A stretch of 64,000 nucleotides of DNA from Deefgea rivuli DSM 18356 (lineage in GTDB: Bacteria; Pseudomonadota; Gammaproteobacteria; Burkholderiales; Chitinibacteraceae), in NCBI RefSeq assembly GCF_000620145.1, contig NZ_JHVM01000015.1, positions 1 to 64,000 on the forward strand, read 5' to 3'. This document shows positions 4,407 to 56,272 of the stretch, piece after piece; within the stretch, counting starts at the first letter, position 1, and each line of letters opens with the position of its first letter. Position numbers and translations under genes: made by a program. Under the pieces are notes generated by a model that saw only the letters and a list, made by a program, of their open reading frames with translations, did no database searches and was not told the DNA's origin.

Positions 4407-4484
4407 GTAGGATGGGTGGAGCTGTATTTTGGCGATACCCATCATTTTGCATTGATGGGTATCGCTTCGCTCCACCCATCCTAC
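4407..4484. repeat. GTAGGATGGGTGGAGC palindromic element, copy 1
   Basis: Perfect 16-bp arms GTAGGATGGGTGGAGC (4407-4422) and its complement (4469-4484) enclose a second perfect stem GCGATACCCAT/ATGGGTATCGC (4432-4442, 4454-4464). A related copy is at 30739. The right edge supplies the TAG stop codon of the GNAT gene at 4481. Confidence 0.9.
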
Positions 4485-4948
4485 ATATTGAGACTTCTTT
4501 CCATAAAAATCTCAGCGACGTCATTATTGTTGTACTTTGGAATTTCATAAAAACCATATTTTTTAAAAACAATTATCGCAGATTCAGATTTTTTCATTGT
4601 GTCGAGTCTGATTTTTTCGAATTTAACTTCTTCGGCGAAACGGATCGCGTGAGCCATTAGCTTTCCGCCAATTCCTTGCCGCTGGTAAGACGGCAATACA
4701 AAATACCTTTTGATTTCACCAATCCGCTTTTCAGGATCTATGGCTCGAATCGCAATACTGCCAATTATCGAATTATGATCTTCCAGTACCCAAAACTCAC
4801 CACCACAATCTTGGTATGTTTCTTTAATATTTCGTATATCTGGCGGCAAATTTAAACGATCAAATGAATAACCGCGAGATTCCTGCATTATTTGTAGAAA
4901 CGCTTCCAATTTATCCTGTAAATCGGGGCGGAATGAAATTAATTTCAT
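4481..4948 (-). CDS. GNAT-family N-acetyltransferase
   Basis: The 155-residue product carries the GNAT core: a beta strand with GSIAIRAI, then YFVLPSYQRQGIGGKLMAHAI, whose QRQGIGGKL is the acetyl-CoA pyrophosphate-binding loop (motif A), followed by FEKIRLDT and a KYGFYEI C-terminal motif. The substrate cannot be told. An AGGA ribosome site precedes the ATG. The gene is AT-rich compared with its creB/creC neighbours and its stop codon comes from the edge of a palindromic repeat, so it was probably inserted here and may have lost a few C-terminal residues. Confidence 0.85.
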   Translation of the reverse strand: MKLISFRPDLQDKLEAFLQIMQESRGYSFDRLNLPPDIRNIKETYQDCGGEFWVLEDHNSIIGSIAIRAIDPEKRIGEIKRYFVLPSYQRQGIGGKLMAHAIRFAEEVKFEKIRLDTMKKSESAIIVFKKYGFYEIPKYNNNDVAEIFMERSLNM

Positions 4949-16299: not shown

Positions 16300-16423
16300 A
16301 TTGGCATCTAAACTTATTGCAAACCTTCGGTAGCTACGCAGCTCAAATGCATTGAAAGCGCTATTCGATTTAGCATAGCGTGGATTGGATGCCGAAAGTC
16401 TATTCCTAAGCGGGGTCGGCGCT

Positions 16424-16650
16424 AATGCCGCGCGGCACTTACTTTTCTTTGCTTCGCCAAAAGAAAAGTAAGCAAAAGAAAGGCGACCCTAGTATCTGCG
16501 TCCGACTTCGTCGGATGCCCTCGCTGCGGACAATCGAGTCGGTTGCGCTCAAAACTCGTTCGGCCTCAAAACCAAAAGCATCGGCCTCGCTCAAACATTG
16601 ATCGCAAAAACCCCGACCCGCTTGTTCCTCGCTCGGCTTGATACAAGGGA
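16424..16650 (+). repeat. Long dispersed repeat, copy B
   Basis: A full 227-bp copy. It begins AATGCCGCGCGGCACTT, then has a perfect 13-bp stem CTTACTTTTCTTT (16438-16450) and AAAGAAAAGTAAG (16460-16472) with a GCTTCGCCA loop, and runs to GATACAAGGGA. It is non-coding; the short frames within it are shared between copies only because the DNA is repeated. Confidence 0.88.
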
Positions 16651-16685
16651 TTTCTAAGCCCCAGTCCGACGACCAAGAAATAATT

Positions 16686-16740
16686 CAGATGTATTGCCAG
16701 CTAAGCTTTGATAATCAATGGCTACGGTTAAATACATCTG
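16686..16740. repeat. 51-bp palindromic repeat (GATGTATT type)
   Basis: Perfect 10-bp arms CAGATGTATT (16686-16695) and AATACATCTG (16731-16740). It lies 35 bp after long repeat copy B. Confidence 0.88.
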
Positions 16741-16874: not shown

Positions 16875-18356
16875 TTATGAACATAATCTCTCCAAACTTA
16901 CAGATAGTGCTGCAAGATTTTCATAATCAGATATGAAATTACAAACCTCTAGTTTAAATTGAACTGCAGAAATATTTTGTTCTTCCGCACATTTTTTAAG
17001 AACCAAAAATAATCCTTTTCCATTACTGTCTTTAGACGATGAAGATTCAGATTTGTAGCTATCAACAATATCTCTTAATGCTCTAACTCGATAAAACAAA
17101 TCACCAAACTCTCGGATAAACTTATCATCTGGATTCGTTATTATTTTTAATAATAAATACTTCTCTAAGCTTTGAATTGGCAAAAATCCTTTCGCAAGAG
17201 GTGAAATTTTATTCTTCGCCCCATTCTCATACTTGGCTTTATAATCTTGTTTAATATCGCCATCTAGAATAGATATAATTTTACACTTTACCCCTGCGAC
17301 CACGGAGCTTTGCATTTCCTCATGCAATTCAAGTGTTTTTTCCCATCCTCCGCATGGTAAGACTTTAATCAAGCGGCTACGATGAAACCCTTGAGCCCTT
17401 ATTGATTTCTCCACCAGATTCTTTGCTAATTCATCCTCTACTAAAAGCAAAAGATCGAATCCATCTGCTGTATTCATACATCGAGTTGCATATGCGGGGT
17501 AGCATGGATTAATAACCTCCAAGCTTCCACTGAGGGATGATTCAATATGGTAAATATTATCAGGTCTAATATTGTTAATTATTTGCGGACTATGAGTAGA
17601 CAAGTAAACACAGAAATTATGTTCTGCTGAAATTTTATTTAGCAGTATTGAAAGTCGATTTTGTGCTGCAGGATGAAGTGCCAATTCAACTTCATCCATA
17701 ATTATCAAACCGATATCCTCAATTTTCTTGTCGCTTTTATATTCCAACTTAGTTTGAATATAATGCAATAGACCAATAATTAAGAACTCACCAGAGCTCA
17801 TTTTGAATTGATGAATCCATTTCCCATCTATTTCATTAATGTACGGAATAGAATTAAACCCCATACCTTTAGCAACAGATATACTTTTAACTCTCATTAG
17901 TTTAGGGTATGCGGTTTTATTATTTTTTAAAATAAATCCCAAATTCTCTTTCACAAAATCACTTGCATCACATACATCAACTGTTTTTATTTTACTTGAA
18001 CCCGAAAGCAACGAAGTATGTGCATCAGAAAATCTATTACCAAATATTATACTACCTTCAAAAAAACCATTCACCAGAATATCTTTACTCTGATGATTTG
18101 CTTTATTCCACGAAATACCTTTAACCCAAGTATTTTCCTCACCATTAAGTCGGTAAGTTATCTTAGACTGGCTATCACCATCTGCTCTAAAATAATTTTT
18201 CAAAGCTGCTCGATAAACCACTTTTGCTAAGGCACTGAAAATTGTACTTTTTCCTGTTCCATTAGTTGCGGTTACTGCATATACACCTTTTTCAAATGGC
18301 AAAGATATTTTAAATTTTTTAATGTTTCGTAAATTTTCAATTTCTAATTCAAGCAT
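16875..18356 (-). CDS. OLD-family ATPase/TOPRIM nuclease, candidate phage defence gene
   Basis: The 493-residue protein has an ABC-type ATPase: Walker A ATNGTGKS (residues 30-37), signature MSSGE (186-190), Walker B IGLIIMDE (216-222 region), D-loop-like ELALHPAAQ and the H-loop His255 in LSTHSPQI. After it comes a TOPRIM-like unit with the glutamate of LLVEDEL (E307) and the DxD of ILDGD (D365, D367). This order defines OLD proteins, which include phage P2 Old and the nucleases of Gabija and some retrons. The gene is clearly AT-rich, stands alone on its strand and lies beside three repeats, so I take it as acquired. No helicase, reverse transcriptase or other partner gene adjoins it. It is shorter than typical OLD proteins (about 550-600 aa). 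Confidence 0.78.
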   Translation of the reverse strand: MLELEIENLRNIKKFKISLPFEKGVYAVTATNGTGKSTIFSALAKVVYRAALKNYFRADGDSQSKITYRLNGEENTWVKGISWNKANHQSKDILVNGFFEGSIIFGNRFSDAHTSLLSGSSKIKTVDVCDASDFVKENLGFILKNNKTAYPKLMRVKSISVAKGMGFNSIPYINEIDGKWIHQFKMSSGEFLIIGLLHYIQTKLEYKSDKKIEDIGLIIMDEVELALHPAAQNRLSILLNKISAEHNFCVYLSTHSPQIINNIRPDNIYHIESSLSGSLEVINPCYPAYATRCMNTADGFDLLLLVEDELAKNLVEKSIRAQGFHRSRLIKVLPCGGWEKTLELHEEMQSSVVAGVKCKIISILDGDIKQDYKAKYENGAKNKISPLAKGFLPIQSLEKYLLLKIITNPDDKFIREFGDLFYRVRALRDIVDSYKSESSSSKDSNGKGLFLVLKKCAEEQNISAVQFKLEVCNFISDYENLAALSVSLERLCS

Positions 18357-20583: not shown

Positions 20584-20647
20584 ATACGCGTTCGTAGGTC
20601 GCCCTTCAGGCCGATGATTCGGCTTATCTTATCTACAGCCCGAGTCT

Positions 20648-20731
20648 TCGTCATACCGGCGCAGGCCGGTATCCAGAGCGACGGTAATATAGGCATTGCA
20701 GCTGGATTCCGGCCTTCGCCGGAATGACGAG
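20648..20731. repeat. REP-like double palindrome, copy 2
   Basis: ATACCGGC-GCAG-GCCGGTAT and ATTCCGGC-CTTC-GCCGGAAT with the CGTCAT/ATGACG outer pair. It lies between the DMT permease and the GH3 gene. Confidence 0.88.
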
Positions 20732-20859
20732 TCGATGGGTGGGCGCGTGGCTTATTGTCATACGGCATTGCTAAATTGACATTGCCAGTCAAGCTATATA
20801 CATTTTGCCGACAACTTATTCCCCCATCCTTTCCTGCCTCGCCCTTTTTGGAGTTGCCC

Positions 20860-22689: not shown

Positions 22690-22917
22690 CGCTAATGCCG
22701 CGCGGCACTGACTTTTCTTGAACGGCCAAGAAAAGTAAGCAAAAGAAGGCCGCCCTAGTATCTGCGTCCGGCTACGCCGGATACCCTCGCTGCGGACAAT
22801 CGAGTCGGTTGCGCTCAAAACTCGTTCGGCCTCAAATACAAAACCGTCGGCCTCGCTCAAACATTGATCGCAAAAACCCCGACCCGCTTGTTCCTCGCTC
22901 GGCTTGATACAAGGGAC
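22690..22917 (+). repeat. Long dispersed repeat, copy C
   Basis: A full copy of about 228 bp. Its hairpin is ACTTTTCTTG (22711-22720) and CAAGAAAAGT (22727-22736) around AACGGC, the loop form shared with copy A. About 50 bp before it are homologous to the sequence before copy E. Confidence 0.88.
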
Positions 22918-22982: not shown

Positions 22983-23033
22983 TGGGTATTTGTTCGTAGA
23001 ACTTATTAAATATGCGCTGCATATATATACCCA
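22983..23033. repeat. 51-bp palindromic repeat (TGGGTAT type)
   Basis: TGGGTAT at 22983-22989 pairs with ATACCCA ending at 23033. It follows long repeat copy C by 65 bp, through a linker resembling that after copy A. Confidence 0.8.
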
Positions 23034-23710: not shown

Positions 23711-23756
23711 TTTATTTTCCTTGAAGTGATTGAACATAGGTCTCTACAAACCTCAA

Positions 23757-23841
23757 TTCGTCATTCCGGCGAAAGCCGGAATCCAGCTGCAATGGTGGAT
23801 TTACCCTGCACTCTGGATACCGGCCTACGCCGGTATGACGA
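23757..23841. repeat. REP-like double palindrome, copy 3 (reverse orientation)
   Basis: The same two CCGG-centred palindromes in reverse order: ATTCCGGC-GAAA-GCCGGAAT then ATACCGGC-CTAC-GCCGGTAT. It lies between the oxidoreductase and its divergent LysR gene. Confidence 0.88.
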
Positions 23842-23999
23842 TCTAAATGACTGATTTTGAACTTGTGTAGATACTTATGGGTAATTAAATATGAATCGAG
23901 TGACTGCAGTTTGCCTGTGTTTATTGACGCGATAAACAGCAAAATCCATAATTTATTGTTATGGAATTCTTAACAATTGCCCACTAGCGAGTTACGTCT

Positions 24000-28589: not shown

Positions 28590-28720
28590 ATTGAGGGTTA
28601 ATGCTGTGCCACGCTGGTTGGTCTGGGGCTTAAAAATCCCGTCTAAGCACACCGAGTGAAGGAGAGAGACGAACAGTTTTATCGTTTGGCTCACGACTGA
28701 TCGAGGGCATCGGGGACCGA

Positions 28721-28790
28721 TGTGCGCCCGGGTCGCCTTTCTTTGCTTACTTTCTTTGGCGAAGCAAAGAAAGTAAGTCCCCGCCGCGGA
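28721..28790 (-). repeat. Long dispersed repeat, fragment D (reverse)
   Basis: Only the hairpin part is kept, in reverse orientation: CTTACTTTCTTT (28746-28757) and AAAGAAAGTAAG (28766-28777) with a GGCGAAGC loop. Homology to the other copies stops after the GGCGACCC stretch. It fills the gap between mgtE and prmC. Confidence 0.78.
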
Positions 28791-28844
28791 TTGCGGCTCT
28801 AAAAAACCGTGCCGCAGGCACTTAAAAAAACTATTAACTAAAAT

Positions 28845-30715: not shown

Positions 30716-30738
30716 GTCATTTTATTAAATGCGAATGT

Positions 30739-30817
30739 GTAGGATGGGTGGAGCGAAGCGATACCCATTGATATAACGTTGATGGGTATCGCCCAAATAC
30801 GGCTCAACCCACCTTAC
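30739..30817. repeat. GTAGGATGGGTGGAGC palindromic element, copy 3
   Basis: Opens GTAGGATGGGTGGAGCG like the copy at 4407, has the inner pair GCGATACCCAT/GATGGGTATCGC, and closes with a diverged arm ending CCACCTTAC. Confidence 0.85.
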
Positions 30818-34104: not shown

Positions 34105-34123
34105 AGTGATTACCTTTGTTTAA

Positions 34124-34172
34124 TGGGTATATGGATGGAGGCATTTTTGATTAATGGCTGCATTCGTATACC
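34124..34172. repeat. 51-bp palindromic repeat upstream of long repeat E
   Basis: TGGGTATAT (34124-34132) pairs imperfectly with GTATACC (34166-34172), with an inner GCATT/AATGGC. It lies just upstream of hemL and 80 bp before long repeat copy E. Confidence 0.75.
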
Positions 34173-34251
34173 TACTTAATATTTGAAATTTAATTTTGAT
34201 GAAAAGTGCAGCGTTTAACTTAAAACATCAACATTCTAATCGCCATGGTCG

Positions 34252-34478
34252 CGCTCATGCCGCGCGGCACTTACTTTCTTTGCTTCGCCAAAGAAAGTAA
34301 GCAAAGAAAGGCGACCCTAGTATCTGCGTCCGGCTGCGCCGGATCCCCTCGCTGCGGACAATCGGGTCGGTTGCGCTCAAAACTCGTTCGGCCTCAAATA
34401 CAAAAGCATCGGCCTCGCTCAAACATTGATCGCAAAAACCCCGCCCCGCTTGTTCCTCGCTCGGCGCGATACAAGGGA
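34252..34478 (+). repeat. Long dispersed repeat, copy E
   Basis: A full 227-bp copy. Its hairpin is CTTACTTTCTTT (34270-34281) and AAAGAAAGTAAG (34290-34301) with the GCTTCGCC loop shared with copies B and D. Confidence 0.88.
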
Positions 34479-34512
34479 TCTCGCGCAGATCAACGAGGTT
34501 TGTTTTTAAGTC

Positions 34513-34563
34513 GATGTATTGCCAGCTAAGCATTGTAAATAAAAGGCTATGATCAAATACATC
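34513..34563. repeat. 51-bp palindromic repeat (GATGTATT type)
   Basis: Perfect GATGTATT (34513-34520) and AATACATC (34556-34563), 34 bp after long repeat copy E. Confidence 0.88.
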
Positions 34564-34585
34564 AATTCCGATGTGTGGATCAGCC

Positions 34586-35807: not shown

Positions 35808-35895
35808 GAAGTGGATTCCGGAGATAGATTACTTTGAAGTTGGTCGAGTTTAATTAAAACGTTGCTGTAGTCCGTTTTGATGAGTCAAAATGATT

Positions 35896-35944
35896 AGGTA
35901 TTGCGAGCTAGCCATTTTAAATAAAGAGCTACAATCAAACACCT
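35896..35944. repeat. 51-bp palindromic repeat, degenerate copy
   Basis: AGGTATTG and CAAACACCT as imperfect outer arms, with the inner pair AGCTA.CCATT/AAAGAGCTA. It lies upstream of the inositol-phosphatase gene. Confidence 0.6.
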
Positions 35945-35951
35945 CAATGCC

Positions 35952-40046: not shown

Positions 40047-40928
40047 ATGAATCCAACTCCACCCACCGTGCTAGTTTTTGCAGCTAATGATCCTTCTGGT
40101 GGCGCGGGGTTAATGGCCGACGTGTTGACGCTGGCCTCATTGGGTTGCCACGCCCTGCCGATTGTCACCGCAATGACGGTGCAAGACAGCGCAGGCGTAC
40201 AAGAATTTCATGCGATTGATTCAGAAATCGTCGACGAGCAAGCGCGGTTTATTTTAGAAGACATCAAAATCGATGCGATCAAAGTTGGCATGGTCGGCAG
40301 CGTTGAGAATCTGGCTGTTATTGCCGAAATCGCTTCGGACTATCCCGATATTCCGTTGATTTTAGAGCCGGTGTTTAGTATGGGGCGTGGCGAAGAACTT
40401 TCGAACGAAGAGCTGATTAGCGCCATGCGCGAGCTACTGCTACCGCATACCTTGATCGTGACGCCAAATAATACCGAGGCGCGTTTACTCGGCTCAGACG
40501 ATCCCGATGAGCAGGAAGATATGCCACTCGATGCCGCCGCACAACGGATTTTGGAATGCGGCTGCGAATACGTATTGATTGCCGGCACACATGAAAAAAC
40601 GCCGAAAGTCGTTAATACGCTGTACAGCCGCCTAGGCCGCGTGCGCACTGATCAGTGGGAACGCCTGCCAGGCAGTTACCACGGCGCTGGTGCGACGTTG
40701 GCGTCGGCGATTGCCGGTGCATTAGCCAATGGTGCGGATATTTCTGAGGCGGTGAAAGACGCGCAAGACTTCACGTGGCAAGCGCTGTCTGCCGCGTTCC
40801 GTCCGGGTATGGGGCAGTTCATTCCCGACCGTATGTTCTGGGCGCGTAGCTCTGAAGAAGAAATCGCCGCCGAAATTGCTGAAGCAGCGGCTAACGCCGA
40901 ACTAGAACCACCTAAGTCGATTCAATAA
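40047..40928 (+). CDS. thiD: Hydroxymethylpyrimidine/phosphomethylpyrimidine kinase
   Basis: The 293-residue kinase has the ThiD landmarks: [16 protein letters not shown] near the start, [41 protein letters not shown] and [21 protein letters not shown], which holds the catalytic region. It phosphorylates HMP and HMP-P for thiamine synthesis. The C-terminal tail of about 25 residues is acidic and extra to the core. It is divergent from rubA. No TPP riboswitch was recognised in the short leader. Confidence 0.93.
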
Positions 40929-40934
40929 TTTTCT

Positions 40935-41017
40935 TCGTCATACCGGCGTAGGCCGGTATCCAGAGCAACGGTAAAATCACCATTGCAGCTAGATTCCGGC
41001 CTTCGTCGGAATGACGA
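40935..41017. repeat. REP-like double palindrome, copy 4
   Basis: Same double palindrome; the second stem carries one change (CTTCGTCGG) that breaks a pair. Confidence 0.86.
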
Positions 41018-41046
41018 ATTGATAAGTTTTGCTGTGTGGATACTTT

Positions 41047-41654: not shown

Positions 41655-41737
41655 AGCGCAATGCTGTGGGGGTCGCCGCACAACCCCCTCTCTTTATAAG
41701 CCTAGCGATCTAAACAAGCCTGAAATGAATTCACTCT

Positions 41738-41842
41738 TCGTCATACCGGCGTAGGCCGGTATCCAGAGCGATGGCAACCACTAACATTGCAGCTAGATTC
41801 CGGCCTTACCTTCAGGTACGCAGAGCGCCGCCGGAATGACGA
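41738..41842. repeat. REP-like double palindrome, copy 5 (interrupted)
   Basis: The first palindrome is perfect. The second is broken by about 22 bp (TACCTTCAGGTACGCAGAGC region) in its loop, which itself holds ACCTTCAGGT. Confidence 0.82.
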
Positions 41843-41896
41843 ATTGATTCGTTTTGCTATTTTTGTATTGATGCTCATATCCAAAAAGGAAACATC

Positions 41897-55979: not shown

Positions 55980-56026
55980 AGTAAAAAGATTGGGGAGAAG
56001 TCTAGCAGAGAACAGCAAAGGCGTTG

Positions 56027-56211
56027 TCCACGAAAAACACGAAAGGCACGAAAAAACCAAACGAAGAATACAAATTTTGATTATTTTCTCGCGCTTAGAA
56101 ACTGATGGAATCAACAAATCGTACCTTTCTGCAAATTTTCTGTGCTGAACTTGATTCGAACTTCCTAAGTTCAATTTGTGTATTTTTCGTGCCTTTCATG
56201 TTTTTCGTGGA
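56027..56211. repeat. Element with 29-bp inverted ends (CACGAAAG family), copy 2
   Basis: TCCACGAAAAACACGAAAGG... at 56027-56055 is repeated inverted at 56183-56211 with one mismatch in 29. The AT-rich interior of 127 bp is unrelated to that of the element at 19481. It lies between parE and comM. Confidence 0.8.
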
Positions 56212-56221
56212 CTATGGTTTT

Positions 56222-56272
56222 GATGTATTTCCATGTAGCCCATATTAAATAATAGCTACAAGGCAATACATC
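56222..56272. repeat. 51-bp palindromic repeat (GATGTATT type), best copy
   Basis: Perfect outer GATGTATT (56222-56229)/AATACATC (56265-56272) and perfect inner TGTAGC (56234-56239)/GCTACA (56255-56260), around CCATATTAAATAATA. It touches the end of comM. Confidence 0.92.

Follow-up and report, generated by a model that had tools for sequence, protein, structure and literature searches.

Comparison of five copies (A to E) of a dispersed repeat in the window, that is, the whole stretch analysed here (bases 1 to 64000 of contig 11 of a 3.7-Mb genome, G000), with their relatives elsewhere points to a mosaic, mobile, intergenic element. Its complementary strand would contain a triple-helix pseudoknot core and would act as a 3′-UTR RNA. 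We hold this composite reading with slightly better than even confidence. The unit is about 230-340 bp long. At least 79 unit starts were found in the genome by genome searches and a profile scan; the copy set comes from these searches and regional retrieval and may miss very degenerate copies, and the head of one unit (C7:99404) is untyped because of a sequence gap beside it. The repeat is intergenic: the midpoints of 67 of 79 units lie outside ORFs of at least 110 aa.

A sequence-only reading of the window had quoted one hairpin in each copy, and all five are present where it placed them. On the + strand then read, they lie at 212-237 (copy A), 16438-16472 (copy B), 22711-22736 (copy C) and 34270-34301 (copy E), and on the − strand at 28777-28746 (copy D). 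That reading missed the loop-box pairing and the third strand described below, and it overlooked that the complementary strand is probably the one that folds. Copies A, B, C and E have an alpha body, and copy D has a beta body of about 231-250 bp; the hairpin block is the sole part common to both bodies. Copy B is a whole alpha unit (16404-16740) on the − strand, which is the proposed RNA strand, delimited by end-to-end alignment to other genomic copies, with its modules read from the sequence. On this − strand it comprises a head module with a GC-rich hairpin (16419-16437), located 3′ of the pseudoknot in the RNA; the S2 hairpin (16438-16472, loop 16451-16459, CTTACTTTTCTTT/AAAGAAAAGTAAG on the + strand), assigned by covariation; the putative third strand (16474-16481, AAAAGAAA on the + strand and UUUCUUUU on the RNA strand), assigned by the triplex rule; and the box GGCGA (16482-16486), which pairs with the loop TCGCC as stem S1, again by covariation. 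A strand-neutral 51-nt palindrome module, GATGTATT...AATACATC, occupies 16688-16738. The cores of the other alpha copies are likewise on the − strand. Copy A has its core at 212-253 (arms 212-221 and 228-237, loop 222-227, third strand 243-248, box 249-253), copy C at 22711-22752 (arms 22711-22720 and 22727-22736, loop 22721-22726, third strand 22741-22747, box 22748-22752), and copy E, an alpha unit spanning 34248-34565 on the − strand, at 34270-34314 (arms 34270-34282 and 34289-34301, loop 34283-34288, third strand 34303-34309, box 34310-34314). The strand-neutral 51-nt palindromes of these copies are TGGGTAT...ATACCCA in A (448-498) and C (22983-23033) and GATGTATT...AATACATC in E (34513-34563). 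Copy D is a beta unit at 28590-28842 on the + strand, here the proposed RNA strand, with its core at 28733-28777 (box 28733-28737, third strand 28738-28744, S2 arms 28746-28758 and 28765-28777, loop 28759-28764).

The hairpin loop is complementary to a box just downstream on the strand first read. On the complementary strand this would give an H-type pseudoknot in the order 5′-box, pyrimidine L1 (UUUCUUU), S2 5′ arm CUUACUUUCUUUG, loop and S2 3′ arm CAAAGAAAGUAAG-3′, in which the box-loop pairing would form S1 and the GC-rich hairpin would stand 3′ of the pseudoknot. Two crossing stems with covariation support are found. The hairpin indeed keeps its pairing through compensatory changes, as the sequence-only reading had held: 169 cells are changed on both sides, against 61.7 ± 5.4 in shuffles. 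In S2 and S1 together, 93.9% of the cells are paired and 12 of 17 pairs have changed on both sides, with a covariation score of 0.390 versus 0.149 ± 0.010 in shuffles (0/500) and a maximum of 0.129 when slid. These 12 pairs comprise the whole of S1 (four pairs) and eight pairs of S2, including all four basal ones. The alignment rows were chosen only by the 9 apical base pairs and a purine-rich tract, so that the basal S2 pairs and S1 are unselected. Across lineages the box changes along with the loop (CTTCGCC/GGCGA, CTTGTG/CACA, GCTG/CAGC, CTTGAT/ATCAAG and others), and over 41 distinct loops, 0 of 1000 box shuffles reach the observed complementarity. A second, independent search used the stem CTTTTCTT...AAGAAAAG as query in 369 genomes of the class, with the next 25 nt unconstrained; it found 24 distinct loops, and 0 of 5000 shuffles reach the observed loop-box value. 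The loop-box pairing is broken in a few units (for example, L313 and L332), and the z scores of nested thermodynamic folding, −1.6 to −2.8, depart only mildly from expectation. Coding sequence was rejected as an origin of the motif: loop length varies from 3 to 10 nt between taxa, and therefore no reading frame is kept.

The purine tract between the 3′ arm and the box complements the 5′ arm base by base in the parallel direction, as seen in the stem and tract pairs CTTTTCTTG and AAAAGAAG, CTTCTCTTG and AAGAGAAG, CTTTCCTTG and AAAGGAAG, and TTTCTTTTG and AAAGAAAA. In the 369 genomes, with the downstream 25 nt free, the parallel complement AAAAGAA occurs in 41 of 62 hit strings from 18 families; a direct copy of the arm was seen in the same search only where it overlaps the parallel complement. 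The tract thus fits the general definition of an intrastrand triplex motif: at least 6 nt of a third tract agree with the duplex under the triplex code, and the loops are short. On the complementary strand, L1 is predicted to sit in the major groove of S2 as a third strand, making U.A-U and C+.G-C triples; the latter require protonated C. In an anchored test of 69 rows, all seven triples fit in 62 rows and six of seven in the remaining rows. At triples 3 and 4, the third base covaries with the S2 pair (T with A-T, C with G-C) in 69 of 69 rows, and 0 of 10000 shuffles do as well. This test replaces an early permutation with unanchored registers, which was weaker (5 of 5000 shuffles reach the observed value). 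Theoretically, the tract could instead be the alternative arm of a two-state hairpin switch since in the symmetric stem CTTTCTTTG the 5′ arm would be open to pairing with it as well. However, the asymmetric stems (CTTTTCTTG, TTTCTTTTG, CCTTTCTTG) follow the triplex code and mismatch as an arm, and the informative stems match 6.8 of 7 positions in parallel versus 4.7 antiparallel, which makes a switch very improbable. Natural sequences seldom offer covariation of three strands as evidence for a base triple. Moreover, the predicted triple helix can be checked by simple compensatory mutations, because the third strand, the duplex and the pseudoknot stem all covary across many families.

Several observations suggest that the strand first read is probably not the functional, folded one but its complement. 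Among the unselected basal S2 pairs, the complementary strand shows 21 G.U versus 1 A.C, although 20 of these 21 G.U cells are at one base pair and the count is thus weakened by possible shared ancestry. Such wobbles occur on this strand in 14 named genera and on the other strand in 0. The S1 wobbles do not favour the complementary strand (7 G.U versus 11 A.C). A triplex of the pyrimidine-L1 type is possible in RNA, but one of the purine motif is not (PMC4666352). The gene context, with genes taken as long ORFs from a simple script, has a similar polarity. Units between tandem genes lie with the RNA strand in sense 25 times and in antisense 9 times (p = 0.009), and 19 units are in convergent gaps versus 4 in divergent ones (p = 0.003). 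The unit would be transcribed at the mRNA end of the preceding gene, in the 3′ UTR, and we infer that it probably functions there as an RNA structure. The triple-helical pseudoknot and the following GC hairpin may hinder 3′-5′ exonucleases or define and protect the transcript end. If the element does block 3′-5′ decay or set the 3′ end, this would explain both its tolerance behind genes and the keeping of structure over sequence. Copies may be tolerated behind genes much like REP/BIME elements. Immediately beside copy B, at 16875-18356 (−), lies a possible defence gene, which is AT-rich and encodes an AAA/SMC-like ATPase of 493 aa (AAA_15, AAA_21 'AbiEii-like').

Bacterial triplex repeats have mostly been discussed as DNA structures. 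The main rival to the RNA reading is action at the DNA level, in which a triplex, single-stranded or of the H-DNA type, would stall replication or serve as a recognition signal in transposition or recombination, as proposed for BoxC/TM_ECO. The mirror purine/pyrimidine tracts satisfy the purine- and pyrimidine-motif DNA triplex codes alike, the repeat combines high mobility with module exchange, and TM_ECO repeats have been linked to genomic instability (PMC4666352). On the other hand, H-DNA has no need of a covarying loop-box stem, and both the G.U-type wobbles and the sense insertions behind genes are concentrated on one strand. We consider a DNA-level role unlikely and retain the 3′-UTR RNA reading. 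If the element acts as RNA, bacteria would have a widespread mobile 3′-UTR triple-helix element with a role comparable to that of REPs.

The repeats appear to be mosaics that evolve by module exchange rather than fixed subfamilies. The sequence-only reading had placed A and C together by their AACGGC loop, long linker and TGGGTAT palindrome, and B and E by their CTTCGCC loop, short linker and GATGTATT...AATACATC palindrome, and had concluded, from joint variation of features about 200 bp apart, that each unit is inherited and spread in its entirety. Both groupings are correct within the window, and fixed subfamilies, with hairpin, linker and palindrome inherited together, would suit its four tailed copies. 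Neither grouping is a genome-wide rule. With GATGTATT palindromes classed as GATG and TGGGTAT palindromes as TGGG, alpha units with a recognised tail combine loop and palindrome as AAC+GATG 14 times, AAC+TGGG 6, CTTC+GATG 4 and CTTC+TGGG 1 (Fisher p = 1.0). Loop type is thus independent of palindrome type among alpha units genome-wide, and the very combination named beforehand as fatal to linked subfamilies, many AACGGC loops joined to GATGTATT palindromes, is represented by 14 copies. Heads, bodies and internal linkers come in two types each and loops in three, a tail palindrome is one of two types or absent, and these modules occur in many combinations; the AACGGC and CTTCGCC loops are each found with both heads and with both bodies. 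What does stay together is the terminal linker with its adjacent palindrome, and the hairpin loop with its downstream box. The E locus of the congener G004 tells against joint descent as well. G004 carries an orthologous insertion with other inner modules: the palindrome type is unchanged, but the loop and linker differ (GACGGCC loop, GGCCG box, short linker). Identity to copy E is 91% in the head, 96% in the body hairpin and 88% in the palindrome, versus 71% in the hairpin/loop module and 50% in the linker. The different modules lie between better-conserved parts of an orthologous insertion and have thus been replaced in place, most simply, we infer, by gene conversion between copies. Given the independence across the genome and the different loops of orthologous E insertions, co-inherited fixed subfamilies are hardly credible, and we continue with the mosaic reading.

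Imperfect palindromes of about 51 nt with variable outer arms (GATGTATT/AATACATC, TGGGTAT/ATACCCA and intermediates) are found both at the ends of alpha units and standing alone, and possibly represent a separate small mobile element. Further members of this family in the window are at 35895-35945, 56222-56272 and about 34122-34180.

The idea that the unit spreads as one piece holds for the insertion of a beta unit, the modules being exchanged afterwards. Copy D lies between an mgtE-like gene and the next gene. Comparison of synteny shows its site filled in G000 and G006 and empty in five congeners (G001, G002, G003, G004 and G005), so that this clean insertion of about 250 bp is absent from five of six related genomes. 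Conversely, one beta copy, inserted elsewhere, is private to G004; its site is empty in G000. A complete beta unit therefore inserts as one piece. Examined for the terminal inverted repeats and target-site duplication of a MITE (non-autonomous DDE transposon), copy D showed GTTAAT/ATTAAC close to its ends and no clear target-site duplication.

The search for a mover found no mobilising gene for the repeat, and plasmids gave one weak match to it. The distant inverted copies in L239 were considered as carriers of a gene between them, an idea that was rejected: by our own reading of the translations, only host GabT/GabD-like ORFs are there. The mosaic build, the intergenic sites and the bias toward gene 3′ ends recall REP/BIME elements, as does the high copy number. 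REPs are hairpins of 20-40 nt tied to RAYT transposases. Neither the size nor the structure of the present repeat fits, nor does the transposase: no Y1_Tnp over the cut-off was found in G003 or G004, even though G004 has many copies and a private insertion. There is hence no obligatory Y1/RAYT transposase for the repeat in the genus, and a REP/BIME-like element moved by such an enzyme is improbable. In Caballeronia and Burkholderia loci (L222 5633-6250, L219, L233 and others) units stand in tail-to-tail inverted pairs, spaced about 500 bp, in contrast to the single copies in G000. Three alpha copies at contig ends in G000 (C11:204 on +, C14:56469 on −, C1:283 on +) have an identical unusual flank, ATCAAGCAGAGTATCAAAATGCTTGACGAACAAGACGGTATC, and look like parts of a larger repeated segment that broke the assembly.

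The distribution of the motif is widespread but patchy. In a pattern scan of species genomes, the matches listed for the block ACTTTCTTTG-loop-CAAAGAAAGTNANCAAAGAA-box include Caballeronia, Burkholderia, Ralstonia, Pseudomonas, Xanthomonas, Lysobacter, Neisseria, Selenomonas, Chitinophaga and others, and thus Negativicutes and one Bacteroidota genome. The motif was found in 18 sampled families of one class (the 369-genome set), and the exact CTTTCTTTG form in 9 of 398 genomes drawn evenly from the phylum (reversed control, 0). These matches raise the possibility, which we advance tentatively and with less than even confidence, of an unnamed superfamily of mobile RNA elements. Its members, spread behind genes in Proteobacteria and present in Negativicutes and one Bacteroidota genome as well, would have a U.A-U/C+.G-C triple-helix pseudoknot core and act as triple-helical mRNA 3′-end elements.

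Telomerase-RNA-type and SAM-II-type H-type pseudoknots contain major-groove triples, and the predicted topology, with a pyrimidine-rich L1 in the S2 major groove, resembles them; no kinship by descent or function is implied. In Rfam, no family, RF02421 (Bp1_684) included, reaches its gathering score in the window, and copy B gives only chance matches; the RF02421 model does not match the copies of G000. Some Caballeronia copies do reach the gathering score of RF02421, and in Caballeronia and Burkholderia loci 12 of 12 matches start within the S2 3′ arm, on the proposed RNA strand. In some Burkholderiaceae copies the model runs on this strand from inside the S2 3′ arm through the following GC hairpin. 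RF02421, described as an sRNA in scattered bacteria, includes neither the pseudoknot nor the third strand nor the remainder of the repeat; this fragmentary sRNA family may thus be explained as one end of the repeat. Its founding candidate, the Burkholderia sRNA Bp1_Cand684_SIPHT, was positive by RT-PCR (PMC3521395), in another species and by an assay that may not be strand-specific.

The nearest known kind is the BoxC/PIT/TM_ECO group of intrastrand triplex repeats (Hoyne et al. 2000, as cited by Holder et al. 2015, PMC4666352). Like these, the present element is a dispersed repeat of proteobacteria in which a pyrimidine arm, a loop and a purine arm are followed, after a short spacer, by a third strand of purines; it has a purine motif on one strand and a pyrimidine motif on the other. 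In contrast, TM_ECO has a short G/C-rich motif, CCCTCNCCC-N3-6-GGGNGAGGG-N3-GGGNGAGGG, while the present motif is A/T-rich, and the TM_ECO copies in retrieved loci, judged by eye, are without the loop-complementary box that gives the present motif its putative pseudoknot. Also unlike TM_ECO, the strand polarity here is backed by G.U pairs and the motif is set in a 230-340-bp mosaic. Identity with TM_ECO was rejected: the window contains 0 matches to CCCTCNCCC-N3-6-GGGNGAGGG(-N3-GGGNGAGGG), and the units read CTTTCTTTG and variants. Direct search found the stem sequences in no paper, and the open literature gave no description of an A/T-rich pseudoknotted form; an unnamed listing in subscription papers or the ITxF database is likely, because those lay outside the search. 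G/C-rich TM_ECO/BoxC triplex motifs, some of them paired, occur in loci that hold or neighbour the A/T-rich element (L418 1240-1330, L247 2414-2920, L213 934).

The window contains other repeats as well. One dispersed repeat with TCGTCATACCGGCGYAGGCCGGTATCCAGA and TCGTCATTCCGGCGAAAGCCGGAATCCAG palindromes occurs in both orientations, with compensatory arm changes, at 2787-2892, 20638-20743, 23748-23875, 40922-41030 and 41735-41858. Repeats of the GTAGGATGGGTGGAGCGAAGCGATACCCAT type form inverted copies 26 kb apart (4407-4489 and 30734-30817). An inverted repeat based on CACGAAAGGCACGAAAAA, with 44-nt arms and 127 nt between them, is located at 56012-56226.
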